From: a virus
IMG/VR virus record: IMGVR_UViG_3300044637_000534
Location: 1 to 58,251 of that record
Reading direction: 5' to 3' (one strand)
Length of the DNA stretch: 58,251 nt
Positions 1,913 through 57,816 of the stretch are shown in pieces. The translations under genes and the position numbers were made by a program. Numbering within the stretch: the stretch's first letter is position 1; every line of letters starts with the position of its first letter. The notes under the pieces are model-generated. The model searched no databases. It was given only the letters and a program-made list of their open reading frames with translations, and had not been told where the DNA came from.

Positions 1913-1929
1913 GTTACTGTGAGAGTTAC
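1913..1929. repeat. Dispersed palindrome GTTACT-N5-AGTTAC
   Basis: Copy with GTTACT at 1913-1918 and AGTTAC at 1924-1929, spanning the stop codon of the leftward 219-residue gene. Member of the genome-wide family described in findings. Confidence 0.7.
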
Positions 1930-2585
1930 GCGGCGACCCCGAGCGAGGCGAGATGCGCGCGGGCCTTGGCGATCTCTGCGGCGCGGGCGAGCGTGGCGAT
2001 CTGCGCCTCGAGTGCAGACTTGGCGGCAGTCGCGCCTTCCAGTGCGATCGGGGTGTCGCTCTCTTCGTTGAGCTTGATCGCTGCCTCGACTGCCTTGAGT
2101 GCAGCCTTGAGCTGCTGCTCGATGGTGCGGGCCTTGGCTTCATCCTTAGCCATTGCCGCCTCGATCTCGTCGTCAGTCAGCGCATAGTCGGGTGACTTGA
2201 GCTGATTGCGGACGACCTGCAGATAGGCGTTGACGGCAGACTTACGGTCGACCTGCATGTTACCATAGATAGTAACCGCGCGACCGATCACGTCGACGGC
2301 ATCGACGGTTGTGAGCGCGCCGAACTCGATCGTCTTCTTGATCTCGCTCTTAGTCTTCTTGACGCTATCGGTCGTGCGATCGTGCACCGACTTCTTGCCT
2401 TGTGCCTCAATGAACGTGTTGACGATCATCTCGGCATCGTCGGGCGAGACGACGCCATCGGCTGCAGCGGAGACCGTGAGGACGATCATCTTGGGCCAGG
2501 CATCACCGCCTGCAGCCTTGTCGCCTGCGAGCTTCTTCGAGGCGGAGAGATAGTCGGAGAGGCGGTTGTCGTTGCGGATGGTCAT
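1926..2585 (-). CDS. Alpha-helical early protein, 219 residues
   Basis: ATG at 2585 with GGAGAT 8 bases upstream. Almost entirely helical in composition: residues 1-120 carry mixed Ala/Asp/Lys helices (KKLAGDKAAGGDAWPK early, DRTTDSVKKTKSEIKK near 70), and 140-215 is Ala/Glu/Lys-rich with likely coiled-coil periodicity (EAKARTIEQQLKAALKAVEA). The largest gene of the left early cluster. A palindrome copy (2259-2276) lies inside it. Regulatory, scaffold or host-interaction roles are possible; none is supported. Confidence 0.75.
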   Translation of the reverse strand: MTIRNDNRLSDYLSASKKLAGDKAAGGDAWPKMIVLTVSAAADGVVSPDDAEMIVNTFIEAQGKKSVHDRTTDSVKKTKSEIKKTIEFGALTTVDAVDVIGRAVTIYGNMQVDRKSAVNAYLQVVRNQLKSPDYALTDDEIEAAMAKDEAKARTIEQQLKAALKAVEAAIKLNEESDTPIALEGATAAKSALEAQIATLARAAEIAKARAHLASLGVAA

Positions 2586-2655
2586 AGTGGTATCTCCATA
2601 GGGTTGGGACCGGCAGTCTTGCCGGGTGTGGTTGCAGTGTAGTTTCAGGGTGTGG

Positions 2656-2672
2656 GTTACTCTGGAAGTTAC
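2656..2672. repeat. Dispersed palindrome GTTACT-N5-AGTTAC
   Basis: Half-sites 2656-2661 and 2667-2672 in the intergenic region, followed within 10 bases by a further AGTAAC half-site. Confidence 0.7.
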
Positions 2673-2822
2673 AGCAAAGTAACAAAGAGCTCGCGGGAGC
2701 TAATTCTAATTCTAAATGTTTTTTTTGAATGAACCTATAGAGGTGTGATGGTGTGATGGTTTTAGAATAAGGCATCACACGACCGGGGGGGTCGCGCGCG
2801 CGCGTGGGGGGTTATATTGTTT

Positions 2823-2845
2823 TTAGAATTAGAATTAGAATTAGA
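2823..2845. repeat. Tandem TTAGAA iterons
   Basis: Four head-to-tail TTAGAA hexamers, the last lacking one base. The inverse pattern TTCTAA occurs twice at 2704-2715, so the two clusters flank about 105 bases. Short AT-rich iterons of this kind are usual at origins and operators; here the role is unproven. Confidence 0.55.
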
Positions 2846-2888
2846 TATAGAAGAGGCCCCATTGCGTGCGGGTAACACTCGCCCACCG

Positions 2889-3089
2889 TCAGAAGTGTTG
2901 GCGAAGAACACGGGCCATCGTCATGCCGGTCGGGATACGTTGAACCCTCACACCATCACACGATACCGGCGTGCGATCGTGTTCGATCGTGTAGAACGGC
3001 TTGGAATATTCCAGCGAGGCGAGCACGCGCGCCTGACGTTTGGCCTTCTCATATTTCGCTTGCAGGTTGCGGTTAACTTGTGAGCCCAT
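2889..3089 (-). CDS. Hypothetical basic 66-residue protein, first gene of the leftward block
   Basis: ATG at 3089 with AAAGGAT about 8 bases upstream. The N-terminal half is basic and helical (NRNLQAKYEKAKRQARVLAS), and the C-terminal half reads EHDRTPVSCDGVRVQR. It is the first gene after the long noncoding region and so probably the first early transcript; no function recognised. Confidence 0.6.
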   Translation of the reverse strand: MGSQVNRNLQAKYEKAKRQARVLASLEYSKPFYTIEHDRTPVSCDGVRVQRIPTGMTMARVLRQHF

Positions 3090-3104
3090 GATGGTATCCT
3101 TTCG

Positions 3105-3121
3105 GTTACTTTGAGAGTTAC
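3105..3121. repeat. Dispersed palindrome GTTACT-N5-AGTTAC
   Basis: Half-sites 3105-3110 and 3116-3121, about 15 bases upstream of the first leftward early gene, a position suited to an operator. Confidence 0.7.
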
Positions 3122-3682
3122 AGGGTTAAATTGACAAACGGGAAAACAATTCTCCCGCGCAGGTCGCACTCCCGCGCGGGTTAAATGGTGTTATTCGGTT
3201 TAGGCGTTGAACCGAAAACCGTCCGGGGTATCGCTTGCCACCGGAGCGCCGCGCATCGTCGCATCGTCGTCGATGCTTTGCGCGGGAGCGATAGGCGCGG
3301 CTAATATCACTCGCGCTCGCTCACGTCCCCGATCGGCCCCTCGCGCTGTCGCGCGCCCCATGGCTCCCGGTTTTCGCGCGTCAGGTCCCCATGCGGTGCG
3401 CGGGTGCCGGGGTGCGATGGATCGCACGCTTGCGGCAATGGGCGCATGGGCGAGCGGGTGGAAAGCCCGCGACTGTTTCAGTAATTCCGTGGCACCGTCC
3501 TTTCGTTGGTGGGTTACACCATAGGGTCGGCGGTAACTCGGAAGTAACCGGACCCCCCACCCCGGAACGGACAGGGGGGGCGGGGGGAGGGGTGGCTCTT
3601 TTTTGGGTACCTTAAAAATATCCAGGACCTAAAAACCTTGATGTAACCTTCGTGATACTTCCGCTATACGCAGACATGAAAA

Positions 3683-3700
3683 AGGCCCCCGCAGGGGCCT
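3683..3700 (-). terminator. Rho-independent terminator facing left
   Basis: AGGCCCC/GGGGCCT stem with a CGCA loop. On the minus strand it is followed by five T. It would stop leftward transcripts coming from the terminase side before they enter the early control region. Confidence 0.75.
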
Positions 3701-3750
3701 CAAACCAAAACACCATCACACCCTTGAACCCCACCACACCCCCGCTAAAC

Positions 3751-4006
3751 TCAGTGCACCAAAACTGCACCGGGTTCTTCGCAACCCATTGATGTTATGG
3801 TTGAAGTGGTCCCATGGGATCTGGGGTTAGCGTATGTCGACCCCCTGGTCGCAAGTCGCGGATAAATCACAAAAAATCGTTTGTTACCAATAAGATACCT
3901 TCGTCGAAGGAAGCGGGTTACATACGCTTGAGTTGACCTGCGGGAGGTCCTGATCCATCTTCAGTGCACCACCATCGCACCAGATCACAAGACACCTGGT
4001 GCAGTG
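3751..4006. promoter_or_regulatory. Candidate integrase arm-type repeats
   Basis: TCAGTGCACC occurs at 3751-3760 and 3961-3970, each followed six bases later by GCACC. A related inverted GGTGCAGTG lies at 3998-4006. Spaced repeats just upstream of a tyrosine integrase are typical of arm-binding sites around attP. The crossover core was not identified. Confidence 0.35.
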
Positions 4007-4036
4007 TAACCCACTGGAAACCCACGAAAACCACCC

Positions 4037-5089
4037 ATGGCCTCCATCTTCAAAGTCGCGTCAGGCAAGTGGCGCGTGCAGGTCCGTCGCAAGGGCCAGG
4101 CTCCCATCTCGGAGTATTTCACCTCCCACGCCGAAGCCGTCCGCTACGCGCGCGGGCTCGAAGTCGACTTCGATCGGCAGAAGCGCACCCCTGCCGGGGT
4201 GCGTACCACCTTCGCAACCGTGATCGACGCCTACACCAACAGCCTACGCCACAAGGTCGGCACGACCAAAGAGTGGAACCTTCAGATGCTGAAGGACAGG
4301 TTGGGGCATGTGCGGATCGACGAGCTGACCCAGGCGCGGGTGTCCGAGTTCCTCAAGCAGCGCGAGCGCGACGGGGCTGGACCCGTCACGAACATGCAGA
4401 CCTTTTCGTACCTTCGTACCGCACTGCGGTATGGCGGGGCGCACATCGAGGCGGGCGAGGCCATCGCCGAGGCGCTCACCCGGATGCAGCTCCTGTGGGA
4501 CGCGATGATGCACACCAAGCAGATCGCCCACTCCAAGCACCGCGACCGGCGTCCGACGGAGGAGGAGTTGGGCCATTTGATGGACCACTTCGACAGCCGC
4601 CCCCGGTCCAAGATGCCCATGACGGACATCATGCTCTTCGCGATCTGCACCGCGATGCGGCAGGGCGAGATCCTGCGCATCCGGTGGGAGGACTTCGACG
4701 CAGAGAAGCGCTTGATATTGGTCAGGGGGAGAAAAGACCCAACGCAAGCTGGTGGGCGCGACCAGAGCGTGCCCCTCTTGCGCGGTCATGTTCGGGTGGC
4801 CAACAAAGCGCAGGACCCGGTCGAAATCATGCTGCGTCAAATCAGCGCTAGACGCAGGTCAGGAGTTATTTTTCCGCATAGCAAGCCGACGGTCGTTAAC
4901 GCCTGGATACACGCGACCGATACCCTGAGAATAAATGACCTCACCTTCCATGACCTACGTCACGATGGGGTATCGAGGATGTTTGAAGCGGGTTATGATA
5001 TTCCGCAGGTCGCTGCTGTGTCCGGGCACAAAAGCTGGAAGAACCTCCAGCGCTATACAAATTTGCGACCGGAAAAGGTGCAGCGTTGA
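4037..5089 (+). CDS. int: Tyrosine-family site-specific integrase
   Basis: 350 residues, usual length for phage integrases. The N-terminal arm-binding part (1-50, KWRVQVRRKGQAPISEYF) is followed by a core-binding domain (55-160) and a catalytic domain with all expected residues: R208 (TAMRQGE), K233, H305-x-x-R308 (FHDLRHDG), H331 (SGHKSW) and nucleophile Y340 (LQRYTN). It would integrate and help excise the phage genome, making this phage temperate. ATG at 4037 has no strong ribosome site. The following gene encodes an excisionase-like HTH protein, which fits a recombination module. Confidence 0.95.
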   Translation: MASIFKVASGKWRVQVRRKGQAPISEYFTSHAEAVRYARGLEVDFDRQKRTPAGVRTTFATVIDAYTNSLRHKVGTTKEWNLQMLKDRLGHVRIDELTQARVSEFLKQRERDGAGPVTNMQTFSYLRTALRYGGAHIEAGEAIAEALTRMQLLWDAMMHTKQIAHSKHRDRRPTEEELGHLMDHFDSRPRSKMPMTDIMLFAICTAMRQGEILRIRWEDFDAEKRLILVRGRKDPTQAGGRDQSVPLLRGHVRVANKAQDPVEIMLRQISARRRSGVIFPHSKPTVVNAWIHATDTLRINDLTFHDLRHDGVSRMFEAGYDIPQVAAVSGHKSWKNLQRYTNLRPEKVQR

Positions 5090-5410: not shown

Positions 5411-5619
5411 GTTCGGAAGTCATTACCATCGAAGTAACCGAGTGGGACCAGATCGAAGCGTTGGAGAGGTGCATCTATAGCCTCACCAACGCGATGGAGA
5501 GCTGCGGAGACGAGGAGCTCGAGGGCCTGTTCCAGCACGACATTGCGTGTTTGCTTCTCCTGCGTGAGGAGCTCAAGGACGCGGTCGACTGCTACACAGA
5601 GCCGTCGCGCCCCAACTAG
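5407..5619 (+). CDS. Hypothetical acidic helical protein, 70 residues
   Basis: TTG start at 5407 overlapping the preceding TGA (TTGA), with AGGCGGG upstream. The product is acidic and helical (WDQIEALERCIYSLTNAMES, then LLLREELKDAVDCY). It ends 4 bases inside the convergent terminase gene. Translational coupling to the HTH gene suggests a shared role in integration control; function unknown. The codons at the start carry a palindrome-like ATTACC-N5-AGTAAC. Confidence 0.5.
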   Translation: MSSEVITIEVTEWDQIEALERCIYSLTNAMESCGDEELEGLFQHDIACLLLLREELKDAVDCYTEPSRPN

Positions 5620-11467: not shown

Positions 11468-12492
11468 GCACGCCTCAAATTGACGAAAGCGTTATGATCC
11501 CCGCCGCCGTGAAGGCCGCAGGTGCCGCCGCCGAAGCCTATTATCAGCAGGAAGCCCAGGGAACCGCGAATGGGGACCAGGAAGCGAAGCCGGAGGAAAT
11601 CTCCGCTGAAATCGAGGCCAAAGAGCCCGAAGCCCGACAGGAAGAGACCAAGAGCGGCGTTACTTTCGAGAGTAGCCCGGAAGCCAAACCGGAAGACGAA
11701 CAGTCCTGGGAACATCGATACAAGTCCATGAAGGGGCGGTTCGACCGCTCGCAGGACCAGATCCGCTCGCTGTCCGAACAGATCCAGAGCTTGCAGGGCG
11801 TCATCTCCACGATGCAGGCGACTTCGCCCGCGCCCGCGTCCGCCGAGGCCGAAGCGGCCATCGAGCGCCTGATTACGCCCGAGGAAGAGAGCGATTACGG
11901 GTCGGAGTTCCTCAAGGTGGTGGGCAAGAAAGCCCGCGAGGAGCTGCTGCCGGTCATCAACAAGTATGAGGCCAAGATTGCCCAGCTCGAAGGGCAGTTG
12001 CAGGGCGTTGGCGGGAAGATTGCGCAGGATGCCCGGCAGCATATGTTGACGCAGCTCGACGAGCGACTGCCAAACTGGCGTGAAATCAACCGAGATGAAA
12101 CCTTCCTGAATTGGTTACAGTTGCCAGACCTTTATTCTGGTGCTATTAGACATGAACTATTGAAGGCTGCATACGAGCGGAACGACGCCCCTCGGGTCGC
12201 GGCTTTCTTCACAGGCTTCCTCGCTGAAGAGGCTGCTGTGGCCCCCGCGAATGGAGAGGCTGGCCGGAGCGAAGCTCCCGCCAAACCGTCTCTCGATCAG
12301 TTCGCGGCTCCCGGCAGAGCCAAGTCTGCGGCAGCGACGACCGCTCCCGCTGAGAAGCCCTTCTTCACACGCGCTCAGATCGCGAAGTTCTACGCTGACG
12401 CCGCTGCGGGCAAGTATCGCGGGCGAGATGCGGACAGAGATCGGCTCGAAAAGCAGATCTTCGACGCTCAGCGAGAAGGGCGCATCAGGTAA
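11464..12492 (+). CDS. Capsid scaffolding protein
   Basis: 342 residues immediately upstream of the capsid gene. Strongly acidic N-terminal third (EAKPEEISAEIEAKEPEARQ), then a coiled coil around 95-165 (RFDRSQDQIRSLSEQIQSLQ), Ala/Pro-rich linkers and a basic C-terminus (KYRGRDADRDRLEKQIFD) suited to bind coat subunits. This is the usual organisation of T7-like/P22-like scaffolds, which guide prohead assembly and then leave. A palindrome-like GTTACT-N6-AGTAGC lies near 11661. Confidence 0.85.
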   Translation: MSTPQIDESVMIPAAVKAAGAAAEAYYQQEAQGTANGDQEAKPEEISAEIEAKEPEARQEETKSGVTFESSPEAKPEDEQSWEHRYKSMKGRFDRSQDQIRSLSEQIQSLQGVISTMQATSPAPASAEAEAAIERLITPEEESDYGSEFLKVVGKKAREELLPVINKYEAKIAQLEGQLQGVGGKIAQDARQHMLTQLDERLPNWREINRDETFLNWLQLPDLYSGAIRHELLKAAYERNDAPRVAAFFTGFLAEEAAVAPANGEAGRSEAPAKPSLDQFAAPGRAKSAAATTAPAEKPFFTRAQIAKFYADAAAGKYRGRDADRDRLEKQIFDAQREGRIR

Positions 12493-14556: not shown

Positions 14557-14573
14557 GTTACCTTCTGGTAACA
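14557..14573. repeat. GTTACC/GGTAAC palindrome in late spacer
   Basis: GTTACC-TTCT-GGTAAC (with flanking bases) between the connector and the next gene; a shorter-spaced variant of the dispersed palindrome and the only clear one in a late intergenic spacer. Confidence 0.5.
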
Positions 14574-16520: not shown

Positions 16521-16521
16521 T

Positions 16522-18119: not shown

Positions 18120-18121
18120 CC

Positions 18122-42834: not shown

Positions 42835-42849
42835 GGTTACTCCTGGGAA

Positions 42850-43242: not shown

Positions 43243-43271
43243 GGTGGTTACTCCTGAGAGTAGGCAGGGGC

Positions 43272-46584: not shown

Positions 46585-46601
46585 CTTACTTGCGAAGTAA
46601 G
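46585..46601. repeat. Dispersed palindrome CTTACT-N5-AGTAAG
   Basis: Fully symmetric variant covering the stop codon of the 116-residue gene, immediately upstream of the gene at 46384. Confidence 0.6.
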
Positions 46602-47565: not shown

Positions 47566-47910
47566 TCAGGCAGAGAGCTCGTGAGGCTCATTACTATTGG
47601 CAGTAATGATGGCCTTAATCTTGTCTTTCATATCCGGCTCGAGCCAATAGCCCACGCAATGCCGGGACTTGATCTCGATGCCGTGCGGCTTGAGCTTGTG
47701 GCGCAGCCGATGAATAGCGACCTTGGCGGTCGTCGCGATGCCGAGGCGCTCCTCGATCATCACTGGAGTAACGTGCGGGAGCTGCATCATCAGCCCCATG
47801 ATCTTCCGCAGCGCTGGCGATAGATCGAGCTTGATGAGCGCAGGATCGACGAGGCCGAGCGCAGCTTCCAGTTCTCTGACGCGCTCGCGTAGGGCTTCAA
47901 CCTCAGTCAT
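47566..47910 (-). CDS. Winged-helix-type small protein, 114 residues
   Basis: ATG 47910 after GGAG. MTEVEALRERVRELEAALGL is a short coiled coil, then SPALRKIMGLMMQLPHVTPV with MIEERLGIATTAKVAIHRLR has a winged helix-turn-helix pattern like response-regulator DNA-binding domains (recognition helix TTAKVAIHRLRHKLK). Ends in an overlapping region with the next small gene. A palindrome (47590-47607) covers its C-terminus. Likely a regulator. Confidence 0.65.
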   Translation of the reverse strand: MTEVEALRERVRELEAALGLVDPALIKLDLSPALRKIMGLMMQLPHVTPVMIEERLGIATTAKVAIHRLRHKLKPHGIEIKSRHCVGYWLEPDMKDKIKAIITANSNEPHELSA

Positions 47911-48147: not shown

Positions 48148-48250
48148 TAGTCAAGGGAGGAAACGCCCAAGGACTGGCCCTCGAACAAGAAGAAGATAAA
48201 TCCGGTTTTCCGCCATTGCAAGGGTTACAAGGAAGTTAAACCCCTATTGG

Positions 48251-50119
48251 TTACTTTGCATTACCATAAGACGGACCACTTTCGGCCTCTGCGCTCAAAG
48301 GCAGGCCGACCGCCCATTCTGGTGCTGTCGACATCTCCTGAAGCACGAGCGCCTTGACCACGGTGGTCAGATCCTCCGGCACCACGTAGATCAATTCGTC
48401 GTGGACCTGACCGGCGAGGCGCACGTCGTGCATGGCGAGCGGCTTGCGCAGCCGGACAGCGGCGTCCATCACCACGATGCGGGCGAGCGCCTGCACGATG
48501 TTTTCGAGGAGCTTGCCGCCGAAGATGCGCTTGCCCTTGGTCCGACCGAAATCGAACACCCACTGCCCGTCCTCGTGGCGGAGGTTCTTGTAATAGAGGG
48601 ACAGGCCGGACGGCAGGTCGATCTGGCCAGGCCCGGCGGTTACTCCGCAAGTAACGGGACCGAGCCGAGCCGTGCCCTTGCCGGAGCTGATGAGCGACAG
48701 CGTGTTGTTCAACGTCTGCCACATCGCCGGGATCTTGGGGTAGGTGGTGCGGTAGGCGTTGACGATGCGCTGGGCTTCCTCATCGCCGAGCTCGATCTGC
48801 TCGCCGAGCTGGTTCTTGGAGAGGATCTTGACGGTGGCTTGGAACTTCATCCACCCCATGCCGTAGCCCAGGCCGAGCACGGCGGTCTTTCCGATCCAGC
48901 GCTCCTTCTTGTCGGCCTTGGTGATGGTGCGACCGAACACGACAGAGGCGAACGAGCAGTAGACGTCCTCGCCATTGGCGAACTGGTCGACTAGGTTCTG
49001 CTGGCCCGCGAACCAAGCGACCATGCGTGCCTCAATTTGTGCAGCGTCTGCCGCGATGACGACGTATCCGTCCGGGGCCTTGAGTGCTTTTCGCAGTTTG
49101 CCGCCACGAGGCAGGTTCTGCATGTTGATCCCCCAGTCGCCCGACAGGCGGTGGGTGTGCGCGCCGGAGTAGCGCAGCGGGATCGGCATGAGTGCGCGAG
49201 ATCCGTCCGGCCACACCAGGTTGGCGATCGTCAGGAACTTCTCCGTGCGGCTCTCCTCGAGCGTGGACTTGAGCCCGAGCCGTGCCGTGACGAGTGCCTG
49301 CACGTCTGGGCTCTCGTGCTCCTCGAGCTCGAGGAAGGCGGGGTCGGTCTTGGAGAAGGCGTAGGTACTCTTGCCAGTAACCAGCGACGTCTTCATGGGA
49401 GGCTCGACGCCGAGGGTTCTGAGCGCCTGGGCGAAGCGCTCGTTGCTCATCAGGTCGTCGCGCGATGTGAGGCCCGCACGCTGGAGGAGCTCGCTCTTGG
49501 ACTGGCGCACCTCGTTCAGGTGTTCGGCGAGCAGGTAACTGTCGAGAGTAAAGATGGGCTGCACCGCGCAGCGCAGCACCATGTCCTGGATGACCAGCTC
49601 GTGCACCGGGAACGGCAGCATCTTCTGATAGATGGTGCGGCACAGAGCGACGTCGTTGATCGCGTACTCGACCAGACCTTCGTAGACACCAGCCTGGCGC
49701 ATGGCCACGGCGTTCATGCCTTTGACGTTGTGAATGGCGTCACCCTTCGCCCCGATCCCAAAATGGGTTGCGAGTGACGCGAGCGATAGTGAGTTGGTGT
49801 TATAGGCAAGGCGGGCTCGCGCCATGCCGAGCGTGTCGATCATCAGCCGAGGGACGATGCCATAGCGATACGACAGGATCGCCATGTCGAAGAGTGCGTT
49901 GTGCGAGACGACCTTGCTGCTGATGAGCAGCTCGTAATTATCTTCGCACCAGCGGTCGAAGTGCTCGCCGTTCAGCCAGAACGGCTCGTCGCCTTCAATC
50001 GCGACGGCAACACCGATCGTCTCGAAGCGCGGATCGAGGATGTACTCGACGGGCGTCATGCGCCGCAGCGAGTAGTCGGTATCATAAAAGGTTTCGAAAT
50101 CGAGGAAGACGGTCTGCAT
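48251..50119 (-). CDS. polA-like: DNA polymerase, family A with 3'-5' exonuclease
   Basis: 622 residues. Exonuclease motifs: DFET at 7-10 (D7, E9), NALFDMAIL near 75 and YAINDVALC near 150. Polymerase motifs: A VVIAADAAQIEARMVAW near 355 (DAAQIE instead of the usual DYSQIE), B RWIGKTAVLGLGYGM near 410 and C QVHDELIY near 573. No 5'-3' exonuclease domain, as in T7-like enzymes. Replicates the phage genome. SD TTGGAG before ATG 50119. A perfect palindrome (48639-48655) lies inside as VTCGVT. Confidence 0.93.
   Translation of the reverse strand: MQTVFLDFETFYDTDYSLRRMTPVEYILDPRFETIGVAVAIEGDEPFWLNGEHFDRWCEDNYELLISSKVVSHNALFDMAILSYRYGIVPRLMIDTLGMARARLAYNTNSLSLASLATHFGIGAKGDAIHNVKGMNAVAMRQAGVYEGLVEYAINDVALCRTIYQKMLPFPVHELVIQDMVLRCAVQPIFTLDSYLLAEHLNEVRQSKSELLQRAGLTSRDDLMSNERFAQALRTLGVEPPMKTSLVTGKSTYAFSKTDPAFLELEEHESPDVQALVTARLGLKSTLEESRTEKFLTIANLVWPDGSRALMPIPLRYSGAHTHRLSGDWGINMQNLPRGGKLRKALKAPDGYVVIAADAAQIEARMVAWFAGQQNLVDQFANGEDVYCSFASVVFGRTITKADKKERWIGKTAVLGLGYGMGWMKFQATVKILSKNQLGEQIELGDEEAQRIVNAYRTTYPKIPAMWQTLNNTLSLISSGKGTARLGPVTCGVTAGPGQIDLPSGLSLYYKNLRHEDGQWVFDFGRTKGKRIFGGKLLENIVQALARIVVMDAAVRLRKPLAMHDVRLAGQVHDELIYVVPEDLTTVVKALVLQEMSTAPEWAVGLPLSAEAESGPSYGNAK
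48639..48655. repeat. Dispersed palindrome inside DNA polymerase
   Basis: GTTACT-CCGCA-AGTAAC, full match; read on the minus strand as VTCGVT. Confidence 0.7.
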
Positions 50120-50263: not shown

Positions 50264-50938
50264 TCAAGCCCCTGCGTGCATGATCCATCGGGTCTCGACC
50301 TGCTTGCGGAAGTTGAACGTCAGACCGCGACCGACGGTGTGCTTGCTGGGCAGCAGCGATGCCTGCGCGATGAGCGCGTTGTAGTCAGCGATCGCCTGAC
50401 GAGCACCGGCAGGGAGGGACGGGATGTTGCGCCCCGTTGGCGTGTCGGAGAGCTTGCTGGCGAGCTCTTCCTCGTTGCCGACCTTGAGCAGCGTCACGAT
50501 GCCCGGCAGCAGATAGCGCACCTGCTTTGGTGACGAGCAGATGCTGTCCAGCAGATGCAGGACTTGCTCACCGCGACGGAAGCGATCACAGACCTCGCTC
50601 ATGCTGTCGGCCCACGCCATGAGCTTCTCCGCGAAGGGCCATTCGCTCTTCATCGGGTAGTTCTTCTGCATCGCATAAATGGGCAGCGGTGCGGACACCT
50701 CGCAGTCGACGTTGATGAAGTTGGTGTCGTGGACGAGCGTGATGATCGAGTGGTAGTGGCCCGCACGCATCCCGAGCTCCTTGGCACGGGCGCAGATCTC
50801 CAGATCATCTGGGTTGACGACGGCCTCGACAACCTGACGCGGATCGATCTTAACCTCATGGATAGATGTCATGCGGTTGGCGAGGGTAGCGTGCGCTCCG
50901 ATTACGGATTGGAAGGCAGACTTGCTTAGTGCAGCCAT
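50264..50938 (-). CDS. Hypothetical 224-residue protein
   Basis: ATG 50938 after AGGAGTAACAT. Helical start (MAALSKSAFQSVIGAHATLA), RQVVEAVVNPDDLEICARAK and EVSAPLPIYAMQKNYPMKSE, with further helices near 150. It is a conserved-looking, single-domain protein between the polymerase and the VWA gene. I do not recognise a family. Its leader is the 188-base spacer at 50939-51129. Confidence 0.6.
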   Translation of the reverse strand: MAALSKSAFQSVIGAHATLANRMTSIHEVKIDPRQVVEAVVNPDDLEICARAKELGMRAGHYHSIITLVHDTNFINVDCEVSAPLPIYAMQKNYPMKSEWPFAEKLMAWADSMSEVCDRFRRGEQVLHLLDSICSSPKQVRYLLPGIVTLLKVGNEEELASKLSDTPTGRNIPSLPAGARQAIADYNALIAQASLLPSKHTVGRGLTFNFRKQVETRWIMHAGA

Positions 50939-50940
50939 AT

Positions 50941-50957
50941 GTTACTCCTGAAGTAAT
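50941..50957. repeat. Dispersed palindrome before the 224-residue gene
   Basis: GTTACT-CCTGA-AGTAAT; the left half, read on the minus strand, is the ribosome site of the gene starting at 50938. Confidence 0.7.
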
Positions 50958-51129: not shown

Positions 51130-52446
51130 TCAGGATTTCTTGATGGGACACTCGACGACGTCGCCGAAGGGATACTTCTGAGCGTTCTTCGAGATGTCGC
51201 CCCACAGCACCGGATAGGCGGGCGCTGCGGATGGAAACGAGCCGTCGCCGTCGGTCAGATAGACGAGAGCATCGGGCGTGATGTGATGCTCGGCGAGATA
51301 GTCGAACACCGGCACGAACGATGTGCCGCCCCAACCAGGCACAGGCTTGCAGCGCAGAGCGTGCAGGTCGCCAGCGTCCTCGACCTCATCGACGCGATGA
51401 ACCTTGGCGTCACACCAGACAACCATGAGGCGCTTGGGGCGAACGTCATCGAGGATGCCGGAGAGCTCGGCGAAGAAGCGGTCGATGATGGTGGGGTCCA
51501 TGGCGATGGAGCCAGACGTGTCGATGCCGACGACGACCGTGCCAGCGGCGTGACCGGAGCGACCGGGTGCATAGACCGGATCGTCGCGCGTAATCATGCG
51601 GCGATCGGGGCGGCGCCAATCGTAGCCACCGGCACCGACCTTGCGGGCGAAGAAGGCTTCGATCTTGTCGGTCCAGGGAACCTCGGGCTCGAGGATGTCG
51701 CCCAAGAACTTCTCGAGTGCGGCGGGCAGCTTGCCCTGAGCCTTGGCAGCGGCAGCACCGGCAGCAACTGCCTGCTTCCACTCGATGTCGTTGCGCTGAG
51801 ACTGAGCATCGTCAGGGCTGTTACCCTGAGAGTTACCGGGAGGCAGATGCTGGTCGAAGCCCTCGCCTCGCTCCTTGCCACTGCCGCCGCCACCACCTTG
51901 CTCGTCGTTGTACACCTTGCGATAGGCGTCGATGGCGCTGTCGTTGCCGTTGACGAGCTTAGGGTCGTGCAGCCAGGCAGTGTTGAATTGGCCGACCTTG
52001 GCCTCGATGAGGCAGTCGTTGATGACCAGGTCGGTCGCCACGTTCATGGTCTTGGGCTGATACTTGAGCTTGGTGCCGTCGGCGTAGCGGATCTCGCCAC
52101 GCTTGTTGAAGACGTGCATCTGTCCGCAGTGATCCCAGATGCCGTGCATAACCTCGTGCGCGATGATGAAGATGCGCTCGGCGAGCGAGTGCTTGAAGAA
52201 CGTGTCGGGGTTGAGGATGAGAGCGCAGCCGTCGGTGGCGGCGATCGGCACGTCCTTGGAGAACAGTGCGATGTGCTCGGAACCGTGCGGGTTCATCATG
52301 GTGTAGAGCACATGGGAGAAGGCGGGGCAGTTCCACAGGAACGCAGCGCGCGTCTCGGTCCAGAGCCTGAGTTGCTGGCCGGTCAGCTCGCACGGGGTGA
52401 ATGTGCCGCGCTTGTCTTCGGTCTCGTACTTAGCCAATGCTGTCAT
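51130..52446 (-). CDS. VWA domain protein with metallopeptidase-like N-terminus
   Basis: 438 residues. The first part carries HEVMH at 97-101 in RIFIIAHEVMHGIWD (zincin-like, DUF2201 style), followed by a Gly/Ser/Gln-rich linker around 182-220. The second part is a VWA fold with MIDAS motif GIDTSGSIAMD at 307-317 and a DGDGS segment near 405. Its partner is the MoxR-like ATPase at 53364. This pair recalls the MoxR/VWA systems for remodelling or metal insertion; the phage role is unknown. Ribosome site GAGGAGTAACC. Confidence 0.85.
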   Translation of the reverse strand: MTALAKYETEDKRGTFTPCELTGQQLRLWTETRAAFLWNCPAFSHVLYTMMNPHGSEHIALFSKDVPIAATDGCALILNPDTFFKHSLAERIFIIAHEVMHGIWDHCGQMHVFNKRGEIRYADGTKLKYQPKTMNVATDLVINDCLIEAKVGQFNTAWLHDPKLVNGNDSAIDAYRKVYNDEQGGGGGSGKERGEGFDQHLPPGNSQGNSPDDAQSQRNDIEWKQAVAAGAAAAKAQGKLPAALEKFLGDILEPEVPWTDKIEAFFARKVGAGGYDWRRPDRRMITRDDPVYAPGRSGHAAGTVVVGIDTSGSIAMDPTIIDRFFAELSGILDDVRPKRLMVVWCDAKVHRVDEVEDAGDLHALRCKPVPGWGGTSFVPVFDYLAEHHITPDALVYLTDGDGSFPSAAPAYPVLWGDISKNAQKYPFGDVVECPIKKS

Positions 52447-52451
52447 GGTGG

Positions 52452-52769
52452 TTACTCCTCGTCAGTAACTTCTGCGTAGATGTCGATGCCCTCGTCGCCG
52501 TCGAGCGGATCGAAGGCGGACACGGCGATCATGGGTTTGTGTTCGTCGGAGATGAGCGATGCCGCAGCGAGCAGGCCCTGAGCAGAGCGGGCCGCAGCCT
52601 TGCGGACGATGTTAAACTTCTCGGGATCTTTGTAACGAACCTTGAGTTCGATGGTGACTGTCTTCTGCATAGAGTAGCCTCCTAGTTCGGCCATGTCGGC
52701 CAGGTTGTTGATGTTGAAGATGCGCCGCCCGTTCACGAATGTGGGCGGTCCCCAGTAATCCTTCCCCAT
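52452..52769 (-). CDS. Hypothetical 105-residue protein (alternative start 52670)
   Basis: ATG 52769 lies one base after the previous stop; an internal ATG at 52670 has a strong AGGAGG upstream and would give MQKTVTIELKVRYKDPEKFN. The second half is an alpha/beta pattern ending in acidic FDPLDGDEGIDIYAEVTDE. Both starts may be used, giving two proteins from one frame. Located between the VWA gene and the 158-residue gene; function unknown. Confidence 0.6.
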   Translation of the reverse strand: MGKDYWGPPTFVNGRRIFNINNLADMAELGGYSMQKTVTIELKVRYKDPEKFNIVRKAAARSAQGLLAAASLISDEHKPMIAVSAFDPLDGDEGIDIYAEVTDEE

Positions 52770-52786
52770 GTTACTTCGATGGTAAC
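52770..52786. repeat. Dispersed palindrome at gene junction
   Basis: GTTACT-TCGAT-GGTAAC across the stop codon of the gene at 52771 and the start of the gene at 52769. Confidence 0.65.
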
Positions 52787-53247: not shown

Positions 53248-53262
53248 CGGTTACTCCTAATA

Positions 53263-53279
53263 GTGATGGTGTAATGGTG
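53263..53279. repeat. GTGATGGTGTAATGGTG repeat copy
   Basis: Copy of the second dispersed repeat in the 116-base spacer between the 158-residue gene and the MoxR-type gene. Confidence 0.5.
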
Positions 53280-53363
53280 TTGTGGTGTAATGGGGTGGCC
53301 CGCGCCACGAGGGGGGATCAGGCGCGGGCCGTCTCAATCGCAGGGGGAGATGCGCGTCTGCGA

Positions 53364-54443
53364 TTAAGCTGCGTGCAGCATGTTGACCAACGTCGCGTTG
53401 CGCGTGGCCCACTGGCTGAAGGCGTCAGTCATGACGATGGCCGGGATGCGCTGGCACACGGACTTGGCGAACGTGGCAGCGAACTCCTTGGGGAAGCGAT
53501 CGACATACTGGAGGACCGGCTTGGCCGTCTTGGCATCGACGCGGGCAGACAGCTCGTAGATGGCGAGCATACGCGCGTCAGGCTTGACCGGGATCTTGAT
53601 GTTGTCGGGATCGGCGATGATCTCGGCGAACTTGGGCAGCTCGTGACCCAGGCGGATGTGGGCGATGAGTTGCTGAGCGGACGCCTCGCCGATCATACCG
53701 GAGGCGAGCTCGATGGTGTTGCCGTCGGTCGGCAGATCACCCGATGGTGTGATGGACCGCAGGATGCGAGACAGCATGACCAGCGAGCGAGGCGTGCAGA
53801 ACGGACCCTGCTTCTCGGGCACCTTGCCCTCGAACACGACCTGCGGGTTGGATGCAGCGAACGCAACGAAGAGCGGCTCGACGCCGTTCTTGTTGGCCCA
53901 ATTCTCCCACGAGGTTACGTCGGGAGTAATCTCGACCTGCACACGACGGTTGATGACGAAATCGAACGACTTGGTGACACCGGAGCGATCCTGGCTGCGG
54001 TTGGATGCAGCGATGACCGTCCAGCCACGCGGCAGCTCCCACGGGCCAAGGCGGCGGTTGAGCAGCAGCTCGGCAGAGGCGCGCTTGACGTCAGCCTCGC
54101 CCTGACCGAACTCGTCGAGGAAGAGGATGCCGCGCTCGAATTCGTGCACGGGGCGACCGTCACGGGTGAGCATCCACGGCGGCATGGTGTAGGACGAGAC
54201 AGACAGGGTCGATGCACCGAAGGCGCGCTTCTCGGGGACCATGTAGCCCATGAGATCTGACGGCGTCTGCGTAGCGAGGAAGAGCGTCTGGAAGCCCCAC
54301 TCGAAGCCGTCGCGCTGGCTCATGAGTGCGCGCATCTGCTCGACCCACTCGGACTTGCCAAGGCCGGGCGATGACTGGAGCTCGATGGAGACGCCGCTGT
54401 CGAGAAGACCGGGCGCAATGGTGGTGAGATTATCGAAGTTCAT
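53364..54443 (-). CDS. MoxR-type AAA+ ATPase
   Basis: 359 residues. Walker A SSPGLGKSEWV at 24-34, Walker B GILFLDEFGQ at 105-114, sensor-like VIAASNRSQDRSG near 150. GYMVPEKRAFGASTLSVSSY lies between. MoxR ATPases act with VWA proteins as metal or complex chaperones. The VWA gene is two genes downstream in the same operon. A palindrome (53914-53930) is inside, read as ITPDVT. Confidence 0.88.
   Translation of the reverse strand: MNFDNLTTIAPGLLDSGVSIELQSSPGLGKSEWVEQMRALMSQRDGFEWGFQTLFLATQTPSDLMGYMVPEKRAFGASTLSVSSYTMPPWMLTRDGRPVHEFERGILFLDEFGQGEADVKRASAELLLNRRLGPWELPRGWTVIAASNRSQDRSGVTKSFDFVINRRVQVEITPDVTSWENWANKNGVEPLFVAFAASNPQVVFEGKVPEKQGPFCTPRSLVMLSRILRSITPSGDLPTDGNTIELASGMIGEASAQQLIAHIRLGHELPKFAEIIADPDNIKIPVKPDARMLAIYELSARVDAKTAKPVLQYVDRFPKEFAATFAKSVCQRIPAIVMTDAFSQWATRNATLVNMLHAA
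53914..53930. repeat. Dispersed palindrome inside MoxR-type gene
   Basis: GTTACG-TCGGG-AGTAAT, one mismatch in the left half, read as ITPDVT. Confidence 0.6.
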
Positions 54444-54460
54444 GGCGGTGGTTTCCTGTT

Positions 54461-54474
54461 ATGGTGTGATGGTG
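54461..54474. repeat. ATGGTGTGATGGTG repeat copy
   Basis: Copy of the second dispersed repeat directly in front of the MoxR-type gene's start region. Confidence 0.5.
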
Positions 54475-54709: not shown

Positions 54710-54998
54710 GGATGGTCCTCGCTTCCTCTATTACTGACTGGAGACGGCGCATTACGGACTGACGCATTGCATCGTCACCGTTGATGACGTTGAGATCAGC
54801 GTGCGCGATCGACGCCATTAGGCTCTGCAGCTCGGTTACTTCCGCAGTAGCTGGCAGACTTTTGTATGCGGCACGGAAAGCGTTGTGCGCCTTGGGCGAG
54901 AACTGATCCTCGACCATGTTGTCGCGCGCCATGAGGTTGGCCGCAGTGCGAGCGTGATAGATCGGCTCGCGTTCATCGCGTTGCAGCTCGTACCTCAT
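54687..54998 (-). CDS. Hypothetical 103-residue protein
   Basis: MRYELQRDEREPIYHARTAA then NAFRAAYKSLPATAEVTELQ and VMRRLQSVIEEARTILEQ. Helical, with the palindrome-derived AEVT peptide near residue 52. Starts in an ATGA overlap with the DUF6378-type gene. No function recognised. Confidence 0.55.
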   Translation of the reverse strand: MRYELQRDEREPIYHARTAANLMARDNMVEDQFSPKAHNAFRAAYKSLPATAEVTELQSLMASIAHADLNVINGDDAMRQSVMRRLQSVIEEARTILEQRHTP

Positions 54999-55405
54999 GC
55001 CGCAGCCTCGGGTGTGTTGTCCTGCGCGGGTGCCTCGGTGATGACCGGGCGTCCCTTGGGCGCGTACTTCTTGGCGATCTCGGCAGCGCTCGCCTGCAGG
55101 TCAGCTTCCATCTGCGCGATGTTGACGGCGTTGTTACCGGTGCCACGCACAGCGCTGAACTGTCCGGCAAACGCAGAATAGTTAATGAGGTCGATCCAGG
55201 TGTCGCTCTTCGTCGGGCTCTCGACGGAGCGTGCGAGCTTCGTTGCGATGTGGAAGATGCACACCTCGAATGGCGAGACGTTACGATTGAGAAGTAACGA
55301 CGCCATGTTGGCGATGCGCTCGAAGCAAGGCTCGACGGGGCCATACTCCTGGCCACGCTCGCCAAGGATGCGGGCAGACGCAGAGATATAATCAGTGTGG
55401 TGCAT
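54995..55405 (-). CDS. DUF6378-type phage protein
   Basis: 136 residues. YISASARILGERGQEYGPVE then PCFERIANMASLLLNR and VCIFHIATKLARSVESPTKSDTWIDLINYSA match my memory of the DUF6378 family, common in phages near nucleotide metabolism genes. The helical C-terminus has Pro/Ala-rich linkers (APKGRPVITEAP). Role unknown. Confidence 0.7.
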   Translation of the reverse strand: MHHTDYISASARILGERGQEYGPVEPCFERIANMASLLLNRNVSPFEVCIFHIATKLARSVESPTKSDTWIDLINYSAFAGQFSAVRGTGNNAVNIAQMEADLQASAAEIAKKYAPKGRPVITEAPAQDNTPEAAA

Positions 55406-55446: not shown

Positions 55447-55464
55447 GTTACTTGAGTAAGTAAC
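55447..55464. repeat. Dispersed palindrome in spacer
   Basis: GTTACT-TGAGTA-AGTAAC (N6 variant) in the spacer between the XRE gene and the DUF6378-type gene. Confidence 0.6.
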
Positions 55465-55473: not shown

Positions 55474-55908
55474 TCAGGTGCGGATCTGTCTCAAAAAATC
55501 CTGAGCACGCTGACGAGCTGCATCATCTTGGTGAATGAGCAGGTCTTTAATAATGTCAGCCGCAGCCTGTAGCTGGATGCGTAGTTCTTTGGTCTTATGC
55601 TCGAAGGGAGGGACCGTTTGTTTATGATCGGTTACTTCCGAAGGTACCCCCATCAGAGACAGGTCGATCAGGCGCTGCATCTTCTCTTGGAAACTTGTTG
55701 GTGCTTCCTCGGGAGACTTGGACGTCAGATCCTCGAGCTGCATTTCGAAGGCGGCAGCGATGGCTCGCAGGACCTTTGGACCTGCGGGTTGCTTGCCGAC
55801 TTCGATGCGTTGGACTGTTGCGTGATTGATGTATGCGCGCTTGGCCAGCTCATGTTGAGACCAGCCATGAATTACGCGCATTTGTCTGATCTTCGCGCCA
55901 ATACCCAT
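55474..55908 (-). CDS. XRE-family transcriptional regulator (probable repressor)
   Basis: 144 residues. Residues 4-60 form an HTH_3 domain: GAKIRQMRVIHGWSQHELAK, RAYINHATVQRIEVGK and VLRAIAAAFEMQLEDL. The remainder is helical (TKELRIQLQAAADIIKDLLI) and probably for dimerisation; there is no LexA-type peptidase. It is the best candidate for the lysogeny repressor. The large palindrome at 55911-55953 is directly upstream of its ATG, which suggests autoregulation. Confidence 0.82.
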   Translation of the reverse strand: MGIGAKIRQMRVIHGWSQHELAKRAYINHATVQRIEVGKQPAGPKVLRAIAAAFEMQLEDLTSKSPEEAPTSFQEKMQRLIDLSLMGVPSEVTDHKQTVPPFEHKTKELRIQLQAAADIIKDLLIHQDDAARQRAQDFLRQIRT

Positions 55909-55953: not shown

Positions 55954-56204
55954 GGCGTCCTGGTCGTGCTGTCAGCGGCGATCTTGGCCATAATAGCCAT
56001 GTCCATCTGCCGCATGAACTCTTCACGAGTGAGCCCGCCTGCGATCAGTTTACCTGCGAGTAACCCGCAGATGATGAGCGCGGCGACCCCAACATCGGCG
56101 TCGTGCTCTGCGACCATATCTGGGAGCTCCTCGACGATGAGGCCAGCAATGTGTGCAGAGTGAGTGAACTTCTCGAGTTGATCTTCGTCAATGATGGTCG
56201 TCAT
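55947..56204 (-). CDS. Hypothetical 85-residue protein
   Basis: ATG 56204 overlaps the TGA of the Cys-rich peptide gene (ATGA), with AGAGGTG upstream. MTTIIDEDQLEKFTHSAHIA, then a helical core (ELPDMVAEHDADVGVAALII) and an LIAGGLTREEFMRQMDMAIM end. Acidic, probably helical, and its last codons form part of the operator palindrome. Unknown function. Confidence 0.6.
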   Translation of the reverse strand: MTTIIDEDQLEKFTHSAHIAGLIVEELPDMVAEHDADVGVAALIICGLLAGKLIAGGLTREEFMRQMDMAIMAKIAADSTTRTPQ

Positions 56205-56353
56205 GAGCACACCTCTGAGCAGTTGTTGTTCTTGTCGCAGCACACAGAGCAGACGATCACCTTGCCGTTGACGACGTAGGTGTGGGTGCTGCACGCAGCC
56301 CAGGCCGCAGTAGCGGTGAGCAGCGCGATGATGGTGATGGCCAGTCTCTTCAT
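56201..56353 (-). CDS. Small secreted Cys-rich protein, 50 residues
   Basis: ATG 56353 with a strong GGAGGTAACC upstream. Signal peptide MKRLAITIIALLTATAAWA (likely cleavage after AWA), then ACSTHTYVVNGKVIVCSVCC and DKNNNCSEVCS. Six cysteines in the mature 31 residues (CS, CSVCC, NNC, VC). TGA overlaps the next gene start (ATGA). A periplasmic disulfide-rich peptide coded by a phage early gene is unusual; it could act on host envelope or metal. Confidence 0.65.
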   Translation of the reverse strand: MKRLAITIIALLTATAAWAACSTHTYVVNGKVIVCSVCCDKNNNCSEVCS

Positions 56354-56355
56354 GG

Positions 56356-56709
56356 TTACCTCCAGAAAGTAAGGATGGACTTCTTCACGGGTGCCGGGCG
56401 CAGGCCCAGCAGCGTCTCGCGGGCGTTGACAGATTGTTCGCGTGTCTCGACCTCGAGTGCTTTGATCGACAGCTCGTTACGCTGACGAGTAACTTCCTCG
56501 CGCTCCTGCACGAGCTTGCCGTAGTCATCGACCAGGCGGCGGGACGCAGCAGCGACAGCGCGCGAGAGCGTGGACTGCTGAGCGGGCGTGAGTGCGCTGA
56601 TATCGGCGTGCTGCAGCCGCTCGACGAGCTGCATGAGCGTGTCGTTGTCGGCGTCATCTTTGCCGAACACGGCGTCGGGGTGCTTATTGATCTTCGCGTT
56701 GAACGTCAT
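56356..56709 (-). CDS. Hypothetical coiled-coil 117-residue protein
   Basis: ATG 56709 after CAGGAGTAACCC. MTFNAKINKHPDAVFGKDDA, LSRAVAAASRRLVDDYGKLV, EEVTRQRNELSIKALEVETR: long charged helices with heptad-like spacing. A GTTACG-N6-AGTAAC palindrome (56476-56493) is in it, encoding EEVTRQ. Unknown function. Confidence 0.6.
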   Translation of the reverse strand: MTFNAKINKHPDAVFGKDDADNDTLMQLVERLQHADISALTPAQQSTLSRAVAAASRRLVDDYGKLVQEREEVTRQRNELSIKALEVETREQSVNARETLLGLRPAPVKKSILTFWR

Positions 56710-56712
56710 GGG

Positions 56713-56997
56713 TTACTCCTGAGAGTTGGGGAGGTAGACTTTGGTGACGTGGACGTCGGTGGTGTATGATTGCAGGCCGGAGAGTTCGCACCCGCCTATG
56801 TGTCGGGCTTCCTCTTCGCTCGAGGCGAGCACCATCACCTCGTGCTCAGAAGTGATGGTGCCCTGCACGAAGTAGTATCGCTTGCCGGGTACGCTGGATT
56901 GAAATGGGTCCTCGAACTCGTCGAGCAGGATGATGCCGTCTTTGTCGTCGCAGTCGCATGGTGTTGCGATGCCGCAGGTGGTGCAGATGTCGATCAT
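56713..56997 (-). CDS. Hypothetical Cys-motif protein, 94 residues
   Basis: MIDICTTCGIATPCDCDDKD at the start has CxxC and CxC, a possible zinc ribbon. Then acidic FEDPFQSSVPGKRYYFVQGT and EEEARHIGGCELSGLQSYTT. Ribosome site GGAGAGTAACG. Likely a small metal-binding regulator of early type; unproven. Confidence 0.6.
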   Translation of the reverse strand: MIDICTTCGIATPCDCDDKDGIILLDEFEDPFQSSVPGKRYYFVQGTITSEHEVMVLASSEEEARHIGGCELSGLQSYTTDVHVTKVYLPNSQE

Positions 56998-57026
56998 TCG
57001 TTACTCTCCATGGTTACTGTTAGGCG

Positions 57027-57383
57027 TCACGACACTCTTCGTATCGGTATCGAAGAGAGCTCAGTCAGCGCGTTGTTCGCGCACGCTGATGCACGCTCTG
57101 CGGCGTTCTTTATGGCGTGCAGTCTGTCAAACATACTGCTGCCAAACGAGCCGCTATTATCCATGAGGCACTGCACGATGTAATTCACTTGGTTATTAGT
57201 GTCGTAAATTTGCGAGGCGATGAGGTTGAGATCATTCACTCGCACCAGCTTGAGAAACGGATAATTGAGGCTGACGAAGCGAGAGAGTGCGTCGACGACG
57301 TCTCTATTGTCGTAGCCGCCGAGTAGTAAAAGTAAGTGCGCTTCGATGACTTCGGGTTGTGATGGTGTTGGTTCGTCTGTCAT
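57027..57383 (-). CDS. Hypothetical 118-residue protein
   Basis: MTDEPTPSQPEVIEAHLLLL, then YPFLKLVRVNDLNLIASQIY and RLHAIKNAAERASACANNAL. Helical with a Leu-rich N-half. ATGA overlap with the upstream gene at 57380; starts near a GATGGTGT repeat (57358-57371). No family seen. Confidence 0.55.
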   Translation of the reverse strand: MTDEPTPSQPEVIEAHLLLLLGGYDNRDVVDALSRFVSLNYPFLKLVRVNDLNLIASQIYDTNNQVNYIVQCLMDNSGSFGSSMFDRLHAIKNAAERASACANNALTELSSIPIRRVS

Positions 57384-57574
57384 TGGTCATCCCGGTAACG
57401 CTTGCCAGTAATCTTGCGGGCATCGTCGACGAACATCTTCCACCATTGGTAGAGATCGTCGTAGCTGGGCGGGCACCATGTACTAATGAGCGTCTCGCCG
57501 ACGTTGGGCATCTGCGCCAGGCGCTCGACGAGGATGATGTAGTTGGTGATGTGCGGCTTGAGTTCAGCGTCCAT
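57380..57574 (-). CDS. Hypothetical 64-residue protein
   Basis: MDAELKPHITNYIILVERLA QMPNVGETLISTWCPPSYDD then LYQWWKMFVDDARKITGKRY. Mixed, with aromatic pairs. ATG 57574 after GGAGAGTAACG. Overlaps the next gene by 4 bases. Unknown function. Confidence 0.55.
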   Translation of the reverse strand: MDAELKPHITNYIILVERLAQMPNVGETLISTWCPPSYDDLYQWWKMFVDDARKITGKRYRDDQ

Positions 57575-57576
57575 CG

Positions 57577-57816
57577 TTACTCTCCGAAGTGACGGTTGAG
57601 AAAATCACGCAGGGTGCGGATCTCTTCTTTGCTGAAGAGGAACCAGCCGTCGCGTGTGTATGGGTTGCCGTCGTCGTCCGTGCCGTCGTTCTCTACTTCG
57701 AGAAGTAACTCGTCGCCTCGAACCCGCAGGCTAAGACGCTCGCCCTGATCTTCAACGCAGTCGAAATCATCATCGAGCACGGGCTCACGAACGAATGAAA
57801 TGAATGGGTCGTTCAT
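57577..57816 (-). CDS. Small acidic hypothetical protein, 79 residues
   Basis: ATG 57816 with GAGGAGG upstream. MNDPFISFVREPVLDDDFDC, then LSLRVRGDELLLEVENDGTDD and a C-terminus FSKEEIRTLRDFLNRHFG. Complete counterpart of the truncated gene at 1-184, which starts MDDPF instead of MNDPF. Acidic; beta then helix. Function unknown. Confidence 0.65.
   Translation of the reverse strand: MNDPFISFVREPVLDDDFDCVEDQGERLSLRVRGDELLLEVENDGTDDDGNPYTRDGWFLFSKEEIRTLRDFLNRHFGE

Follow-up and report, generated by a model that had tools for sequence, protein, structure and literature searches.

The DNA analysed here, referred to as the window, is the whole virus record IMGVR_UViG_3300044637_000534 (58,251 bases). 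The presence in it of a dispersed palindromic repeat, GTTACT-N4 to N7-AGTAAC, was confirmed. Judged from the sequence, the copies of this repeat are probably the dispersed operators of a phage-encoded and probably dimeric DNA-binding protein that would silence the prophage, a reading that covers any phage-encoded binder.

A palindromic repeat is dispersed through the window

Sites were defined as GTTACT and AGTAAC separated by four to seven bases, with at most two mismatches and no overlap. By this rule the window contained 68 sites, of which 31 had the spacing N5, 28 had N6, five had N4 and four had N7; N5 and N6 together made up 59 of the 68. The initial annotation, made from the letters of the window, had proposed that the repeat exceeds chance, and this was borne out. 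Before overlap removal there were 6, 36 and 72 sites at no, up to one and up to two mismatches, respectively, compared to means of 0, 0.07 and 2.2 in 30 dinucleotide shuffles (maxima 0, 1 and 6). All 27 places that it had listed contain both half-sites and fall among the 68; the coordinates were right for 26 of them, and the site placed at 32104 is one base off, truly lying at 32105-32121. The stricter form that it had used, GTWACT-N4 to N7-AGTWAC, occurred 13 times, including eight times at N5 versus none for the reversed control. Spacings outside four to seven were near shuffle level at up to two mismatches; at three mismatches they reached approximately 1.3 to 3 times the shuffle level, because the half-sites themselves are abundant.

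The excess extended into coding sequence, where 43 sites were observed compared to a mean of 4.45 and a maximum of 11 in 40 synonymous-codon shuffles. The third base of the half was a symmetric T and A in 45 sites, T in both halves in 16, A in both in four and otherwise in three. The sites were unevenly distributed, with 3.8 per kb in positions 1-3700, 0.45 per kb in 3701-36900 (integrase and structural genes) and 1.8 per kb in 36901-58251.

A protein-level motif was ruled out as the cause of the repeat, since coding sites occurred in all three codon phases and exceeded the synonymous shuffles. The three phases were unequally used in the window (26, 8 and 9 sites), which is tentatively put down to avoidance of stop codons.

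A second dispersed repeat, ACCATCACACCATCAC, gave 14 matches with up to three mismatches versus 0.35 expected; it was recorded at 382-405, 1871-1886, 2745-2760, 2944-2967, 3704-3719, 40635-40650, 53263-53286, 53741-53756, 54458-54473 and 58014-58037.

Sites lie at start codons and inside genes

Genes were our own calls, from a caller that rewards Shine-Dalgarno motifs. Using these calls, 43 of the 68 sites lay inside genes, 19 lay no more than 30 nucleotides (nt) before a start, compared to 3.1 by random placement, and six were otherwise intergenic or overlapped a gene end. In 16 of the 68 the site ended 1-5 nt before a called start, versus a mean of 0.53 and a maximum of 4 in 1000 random placements. 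The Shine-Dalgarno letters GGAG were within the site in 15 of these 16 start-codon sites, as in AGGAGTAAC-CACC-ATG; the site of gp75 lacked them. Start-codon placement was also seen in most site-bearing relatives, with no site within 5 nt in relative G009.

Coordinates are those of the scan at up to two mismatches, and no strand is assigned. The start-codon sites with N5 were those of gp02 (778-794), gp04 (1235-1251), gp06 (1636-1652), gp07 (1821-1837), gp73 (50941-50957) and gp75 (52770-52786); those with N6 belonged to gp01 (361-378), gp05 (1459-1476), gp60 (42836-42853), gp61 (43247-43264), gp76 (53250-53267), gp85 (57000-57017), gp87 (57576-57593) and gp89 (57993-58010), and those with N7 to gp74 (52451-52469) and gp83 (56355-56373). 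Slightly further away, N5 sites lay 16 nt before the starts of gp09 (3105-3121) and gp67 (46585-46601), and an N4 site lay 19 nt before that of gp28 (14557-14572). Two sites were intergenic (60-77, N6; 3533-3548, N4), one was upstream of gp08 (2656-2672, N5), one was between gp80 and gp81 (55447-55464, N6) and two overlapped the 3' ends of gp08 (1913-1929, N5) and gp72 (48250-48265, N4).

Inside genes, N5 sites were found in gp03 (989-1005), gp14 (5422-5438), gp26 (13719-13735), gp31 (16942-16958), gp38 (21053-21069), gp51 (32105-32121, 34367-34383 and 35853-35869), gp52 (37100-37116), gp58 (38777-38793), gp59 (40677-40693 and 41190-41206), gp60 (41996-42012), gp63 (44556-44572), gp65 (45638-45654), gp69 (46972-46988), gp72 (48639-48655), gp74 (51820-51836), gp77 (53914-53930), gp79 (54835-54851) and gp81 (55631-55647). 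N6 sites were located in gp04 (1084-1101), gp08 (2259-2276), gp24 (11659-11676), gp35 (19900-19917), gp48 (25417-25434), gp49 (25967-25984), gp50 (27276-27293), gp51 (29315-29332 and 33565-33582), gp54 (38119-38136), gp63 (44066-44083 and 45086-45103), gp66 (46358-46375), gp70 (47590-47607), gp72 (49364-49381 and 49535-49552), gp84 (56476-56493) and gp88 (57692-57709). The N4 sites were in gp53 (37392-37407) and gp82 (56049-56064) and the N7 sites in gp59 (40026-40044) and gp80 (55280-55298).

Because the window ends are nearly identical, two of the 68 sites occur twice, 57692-57709 repeating 60-77 and 57993-58010 repeating 361-378. These ends, 1-619 and 57633-58251, are direct repeats of 93-97% identity, to be explained either by a duplication or by a terminal redundancy whose copies vary.

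Structural genes held 15 of the 68 sites. The density of exact cores, the reduced form of the site defined below, was higher in early than in late genes of the window (0.68 versus 0.27 per kb), of Rhizobium phage RHph_TM3_14A (1.07 versus 0.40) and of the Bradyrhizobium sp. 139 prophage (0.55 versus 0.20).

Related phages share a core and differ in its details

Matches to PHROGs families in the window comprised an integrase (4037-5089, plus strand), which points to a temperate lifestyle, together with a terminase, a portal or head-tail adaptor, a major head protein, an internal virion protein, a primase-helicase, a helicase, an exonuclease and a DNA polymerase. The nearest named relatives by capsid were Rhizobium phages RHph_TM3_14A, TM27A, TM27B and TM29 (70%), and the capsids of two Bradyrhizobium contigs were 73-74% identical to that of the window. 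We infer that the window is a temperate phage of an alphaproteobacterium. Consecutive related tail-fibre-like genes at 15027-19358 include blocks of 60-118 nt that are present three times.

Relatives, designated here by G numbers for genomes and L numbers for loci, were gathered by capsid-, polymerase- and gp08-based searches; a search at the DNA level with 25 kb from each window end returned no phage relatives. Many of them are incomplete contigs. Several closely resemble one another, and because G001 is near the window and G004 near G003, not every genome counts as independent.

Across the clade the site reduced to a core of TTAC-N7 or N8-GTAA, that is, 15 or 16 bp across. This core was strongly enriched at these two spacings in TM3_14A, G001-G010 and G012, as well as in two Bradyrhizobium prophages, and more weakly in G011 (seven exact copies). 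The counts at N7 and N8 were 14 and 32 in TM3_14A, 5 and 38 in G005, 2 and 45 in G006, 20 and 0 in G007, 5 and 17 in G009, 3 and 24 in G010, and 23 and 25 in G012; in the same seven phages every other spacing from 0 to 16 gave 0-3 copies. The preferred spacing was specific to the phage, with 45 of 47 copies at N8 in G006 and 20 of 20 at N7 in G007. The inner bases varied as well: the half was TTACTC in G009, TTACCA in G007, TTACCC in G012, TTACCT in G010 and TM3_14A, and TACCTC in G011. One such dialect was common to the window and G003 and another to G005 and G008. Three relatives were site-poor at N7 and N8 (none in G013 and G014, two in G015), and in HMO-2011 and RHph_N3_19, distant relatives by capsid, the site was not enriched in the 50 kb read of each.

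The initial annotation had held that close relatives should carry the sites at the same positions. This was partly the case for G003, in which 10 of 24 comparable internal sites were kept, but nine other phages kept only 0-4 of 8-17 window positions; these nine had many sites of their own.

Small early proteins of approximately 60-110 residues with an AMLLG-like motif were seen by eye in TM3_14A and in the phage contig of Bradyrhizobium SA-3 (L096, 21650-24202 and 24754-25023; L163, 11700-11912 and 15328-19531).

Exact sites in two host genomes are concentrated in prophage DNA

In the 8.7-Mb genome of Bradyrhizobium SA-3, five of the six exact TTACC-N6-GGTAA matches were in a 60.6-kb phage contig, and in Bradyrhizobium sp. 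139 all nine were in two contig ends that jointly hold a prophage. In the comparison with host genomes that had been proposed, 14 of the 15 exact sites in the two genomes were inside prophage, but their total was not above that of the reversed control (6 versus 4 in SA-3 and 9 versus 7 in sp. 139). Since the control was nearly as frequent genome-wide, the evidence lies in the location of the sites and not in their number. The sp. 139 prophage is bordered by a large serine recombinase, followed by host genes (names assigned by eye). No exact core site was present in 53.8 kb of the host flanks.

At both ends of the SA-3 phage contig (L162, 100-123; L165) there were tandem GTTACC half-sites approximately 11 bp apart in direct order.

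gp08 is the best candidate for the binding protein

The initial annotation had named two window proteins as possible binders, neither of which was widespread enough to act as a general one. A homologue of the XRE-type helix-turn-helix protein gp81 (55474-55908, minus strand) was detected only in the window, G001, G002, G004 and, weakly, G011. It was not found in the site-bearing TM3_14A, G003, G005-G010, G012 or the SA-3 contig, where the misses in G008, G010 and G012 (shorter contigs) and in G003 (which lacks the neighbouring gp79-gp89) count as weak evidence. The RHH-like protein (37084-37347, minus strand) was detected in no genome other than the window and G001-G004.

The distribution of gp08 (1926-2585, minus strand; 219 amino acids) followed that of the sites more closely. 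By clustering of all called genes, it was present in 12 of 14 site-bearing genomes; the remaining two are contigs from which terL is missing as well. None of the three site-poor relatives had it. A profile search agreed with this distribution, and gp08 was present in both Bradyrhizobium genomes. In further bacterial genomes (1/296, 2/265 and 1/385 in overlapping sets) it was found only in the two known Bradyrhizobium prophages.

Among loci of at least 8 kb scored by the exact-core rule, eight had sites and gp08, 42 had neither, 19 had sites without gp08 and four had gp08 without sites. Of the 19, eight (L024, L041, L047, L048, L055, L056, L087 and L147) belong to contigs with gp08 elsewhere and one (L148) to a genome with gp08 on another contig; the other ten are on contigs of approximately 9-48 kb, two of which (G002 and G004) were searched whole and had no gp08. 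Of the four loci with gp08 only, G011 (L021), L014 and L028 bear variant sites, few of them in L014 and L028, and L046 bears none. L180, a contig found by gp08 alone and placed in the same clade by its capsid, had nine exact cores at N7 and N8 versus one at all other spacings; there was no site just upstream of its gp08.

gp08 also came first when 34 gene families were compared for sites within 100 bp upstream (9 of 12 versus 3.0 expected, p = 2.6e-4; approximately 0.009 after correction for the 34 families). This test left out G001, G002 and G004 as near-duplicates of the window or of G003, although most proteins that G002 shares with the window are only 73-91% identical, as well as the site-poor G013-G015 and L046. 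With the strict pattern, a site was within 110 bp upstream in 12 of 18 gp08 genes, compared to a per-genome background of 0.05-0.45; G010 and G011 had one-mismatch versions upstream of gp08.

The structural model of gp08 was all-helical, with a mean predicted local distance difference test (pLDDT) score of 87. In VIA-align its rows reached Z 7.1 (a designed bundle, BAR-type and other long helices), and the TetR-family proteins SlmA, FasR and MbdR gave Z values of 4.2 to 5.3 over approximately 100 residues that, judged by the chain ranges, lie away from their DNA-binding ends; such values count as uninformative when a model is helical. The viral structure library gave two matches to gp08, both of unknown function. 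The link of gp08 to the sites is circumstantial, and we rate the possibility that it is their binder as slightly short of even. The second candidate is gp73 (50264-50938, minus strand; 224 amino acids), which had a similar occurrence and no fold match.

An AT-rich stretch with TATTCT or AGAATA-like repeats was observed upstream of gp08 at 2699-2851 of the window, and such a stretch also lay upstream of gp08 in G003 (L108), G006 (L116), G008 (L123), G010 (L129) and G011 (L130). It could be a replication origin or a recombination arm region. No sigma-70 promoter was detected when 2500-4100 was scanned.

Evaluation of the alternative explanations

An inverted repeat with a short loop, carrying GGAG in 15 of the 16 close start-codon sites, might also act as an RNA hairpin that controls translation by hiding the Shine-Dalgarno sequence. 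Covariation was examined in 364 exact-core sites from 12 genomes, G001, G002, G004 and G011 being left out. At six flanking positions Watson-Crick pairing was no higher than for independent halves, and it was below expectation at +4 (214 versus 237.8, standard deviation 5.7), +5 (174 versus 191.5) and +6 (127 versus 140.1). G-T pairs at these three positions were slightly above expectation, in favour of a hairpin (64, 55 and 53 versus 52.4, 46.7 and 45.9), but the sum of both kinds of pair was still below it. The compensating changes between arms that are a trait of translational operators were thus absent from this set. The halves do not covary like an RNA stem, so that a protein dimer probably recognises the site as DNA. 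Among sites near start codons, the better match was the downstream half in 94 and the upstream half in 19, with 37 equal; the GTAAC variant, expected to disrupt an mRNA hairpin, was distributed 63:5 in favour of the upstream half at start-codon sites, compared to 11:12 inside genes. Internal sites had no significant orientation (upstream half better in 91, downstream in 72, equal in 112; p = 0.16). These patterns are read as protein-bound DNA with hairpins counter-selected at start codons, although the polarity there could owe something to A being favoured in the vicinity of starts. Given also the 43 sites inside genes, control by RNA hairpins appears highly improbable.

A host factor, which the initial annotation had allowed for, is scarcely credible as the binder. 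No support for a host protein was found; the core is common to phages of several hosts, the inner bases vary from phage to phage, and, as described above, exact sites are concentrated in prophage and absent from the host flank. A role of the sites in organising or partitioning the phage DNA rather than in silencing genes, through a phage protein of a nucleoid-like, centromere-like or packaging-related kind, is unlikely. Site numbers are maintained as internal positions change, and many sites are inside genes, as such a role would predict. Against it stand the strong concentration 1-5 nt before start codons and the denser early genes in three of four phages; moreover, the sp. 139 prophage, being flanked by host genes, needs no partition, and no ParA or ParB was seen among the proteins scanned, which were only part of the total. 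The denser early genes would suit a regulator of lytic timing that represses early genes late in infection and has no role in lysogeny, as would the isolated phage TM3_14A, which has no recognised integrase and yet carries 46 exact cores at N7 and N8. Such a regulator is nevertheless improbable, as structural genes and an integrated prophage contain sites too, and the window itself encodes an integrase.

Silencing of the prophage by a phage-encoded protein is thus the preferred reading, and several results weigh against it or against gp08 as its agent. Besides the small G-T excess and the host-genome totals close to those of the control, the gene caller may, by rewarding Shine-Dalgarno motifs, help to put starts beside sites. 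Early and late densities were nearly equal in SA-3 (0.33 and 0.26 per kb). TM3_14A had no homologue of the window integrase and no integrase domain in its 49 scanned proteins (larger ones were unscanned). The more distant relative G013 (L134-L136) had a palindrome of its own, TTAACAG-N-CTGTTAA, in eight copies and no detected gp08. Families gp26, gp77 and gp73 also had upstream sites above expectation, and the occurrence patterns of gp73 and, less fully, of gp75 and gp70 were like that of gp08. The gp08 genes of G007, G010, G011, L028, L046 and L180 had no strict upstream site, and L046 carried gp08 with one exact core in 19.7 kb. Mantel correlation of protein with motif divergence did not single out a binder, gp08 (r = 0.46) tracking the motif no better than the ATPase (0.57), portal (0.49) or terL (0.48). 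Finally, gp08 had no PHROGs family and no Pfam match above the cut-off, and fold searches with gp08 and gp73 returned no confident solved-structure match.

With these points taken into account, we infer that a protein dimer binds the sites, that it silences by acting as a roadblock and that gp08 may be this protein. Each half (GTTACT in the window; GTTACC, TTACTC, TTACCA and others in relatives) would be read as DNA. Protein bound in a promoter would stop initiation, and protein sitting over a Shine-Dalgarno sequence or within a gene would obstruct RNA polymerase during elongation, as proposed for the L5 repressor at stoperators. More tentatively, and at rather less than an even chance, gp08 would found a new all-helical family of phage repressors without a known DNA-binding domain, reading a palindrome of two spacings and silencing the whole prophage by roadblocks in ribosome-binding sites and reading frames, with a specificity that diversifies like immunity groups.

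Comparison with known repressor-site systems

The initial annotation had likened the repeat to the stoperators of mycobacteriophage L5. Papers on cluster A mycobacteriophages such as L5 describe more than 20 operator or stoperator sites in promoters and gene junctions, a motif that is similar but not identical from phage to phage, and a site upstream of the repressor gene; the L5 sites are asymmetric 13-mers that a monomer binds and whose orientation follows transcription (PMC9283540, PMC6550527). The parallel holds in part. Like L5, the window has more than 20 sites genome-wide (68, versus approximately two in shuffles), located before starts among other places and concentrated in prophage, with a motif that varies between related phages of the clade; where the L5 repressor gene has an upstream site, so here often does the candidate gp08 (12 of 18). 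In contrast to the asymmetric 13-bp L5 site, the site described here is palindromic, with a core of 15 or 16 bp and two main spacings. Internal sites are unoriented and only start-codon sites are polar (19 versus 94), and 43 of the 68 lie inside genes rather than in promoters or short gene junctions. The known hosts of the clade are Rhizobium and Bradyrhizobium, unlike those of a mycobacteriophage. Because its site is palindromic, its internal sites are unoriented and most copies lie inside genes, the network of the window falls outside the defined L5 system.

A looser likeness is to the SPbeta prophage, for which the literature describes SPBRE, a 15-bp motif at intergenic regions derived from nine chromatin affinity precipitation sequencing (ChAP-seq) peaks, and MrpR, a master repressor of unusual fold that resembles tyrosine recombinases and binds this element (PMC10516654). 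Both systems have a short repeated element in a prophage; unlike MrpR, the candidate gp08 is predicted to be all-helical and had no confident match in the PDB.

Dispersed phage repressor operators also include the conserved inverted repeats of Streptomyces phage phiC31, which are palindromic, and the P1 c1 operators. These have other sequences and fewer copies, and are not known to be fused to ribosome-binding sites. A literature search, which did not cover the papers describing the RHph phages, returned nothing on phiC31 inverted repeats, dispersed palindromes, or stoperator-like or rhizobial repressor sites.

Genome-wide networks of repressor sites have been described, in the papers cited above, for mycobacteriophages and SPbeta. 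If the silencing reading is true, root-nodule bacteria and their relatives would have temperate phages with such a network, its palindromes embedded in Shine-Dalgarno sequences and reading frames. The phage dialects would form a set for studying how a repressor and dozens of its sites change specificity jointly. The finding points to an uncharacterised protein family, that of gp08, and the isolated phage RHph_TM3_14A makes the network directly testable.

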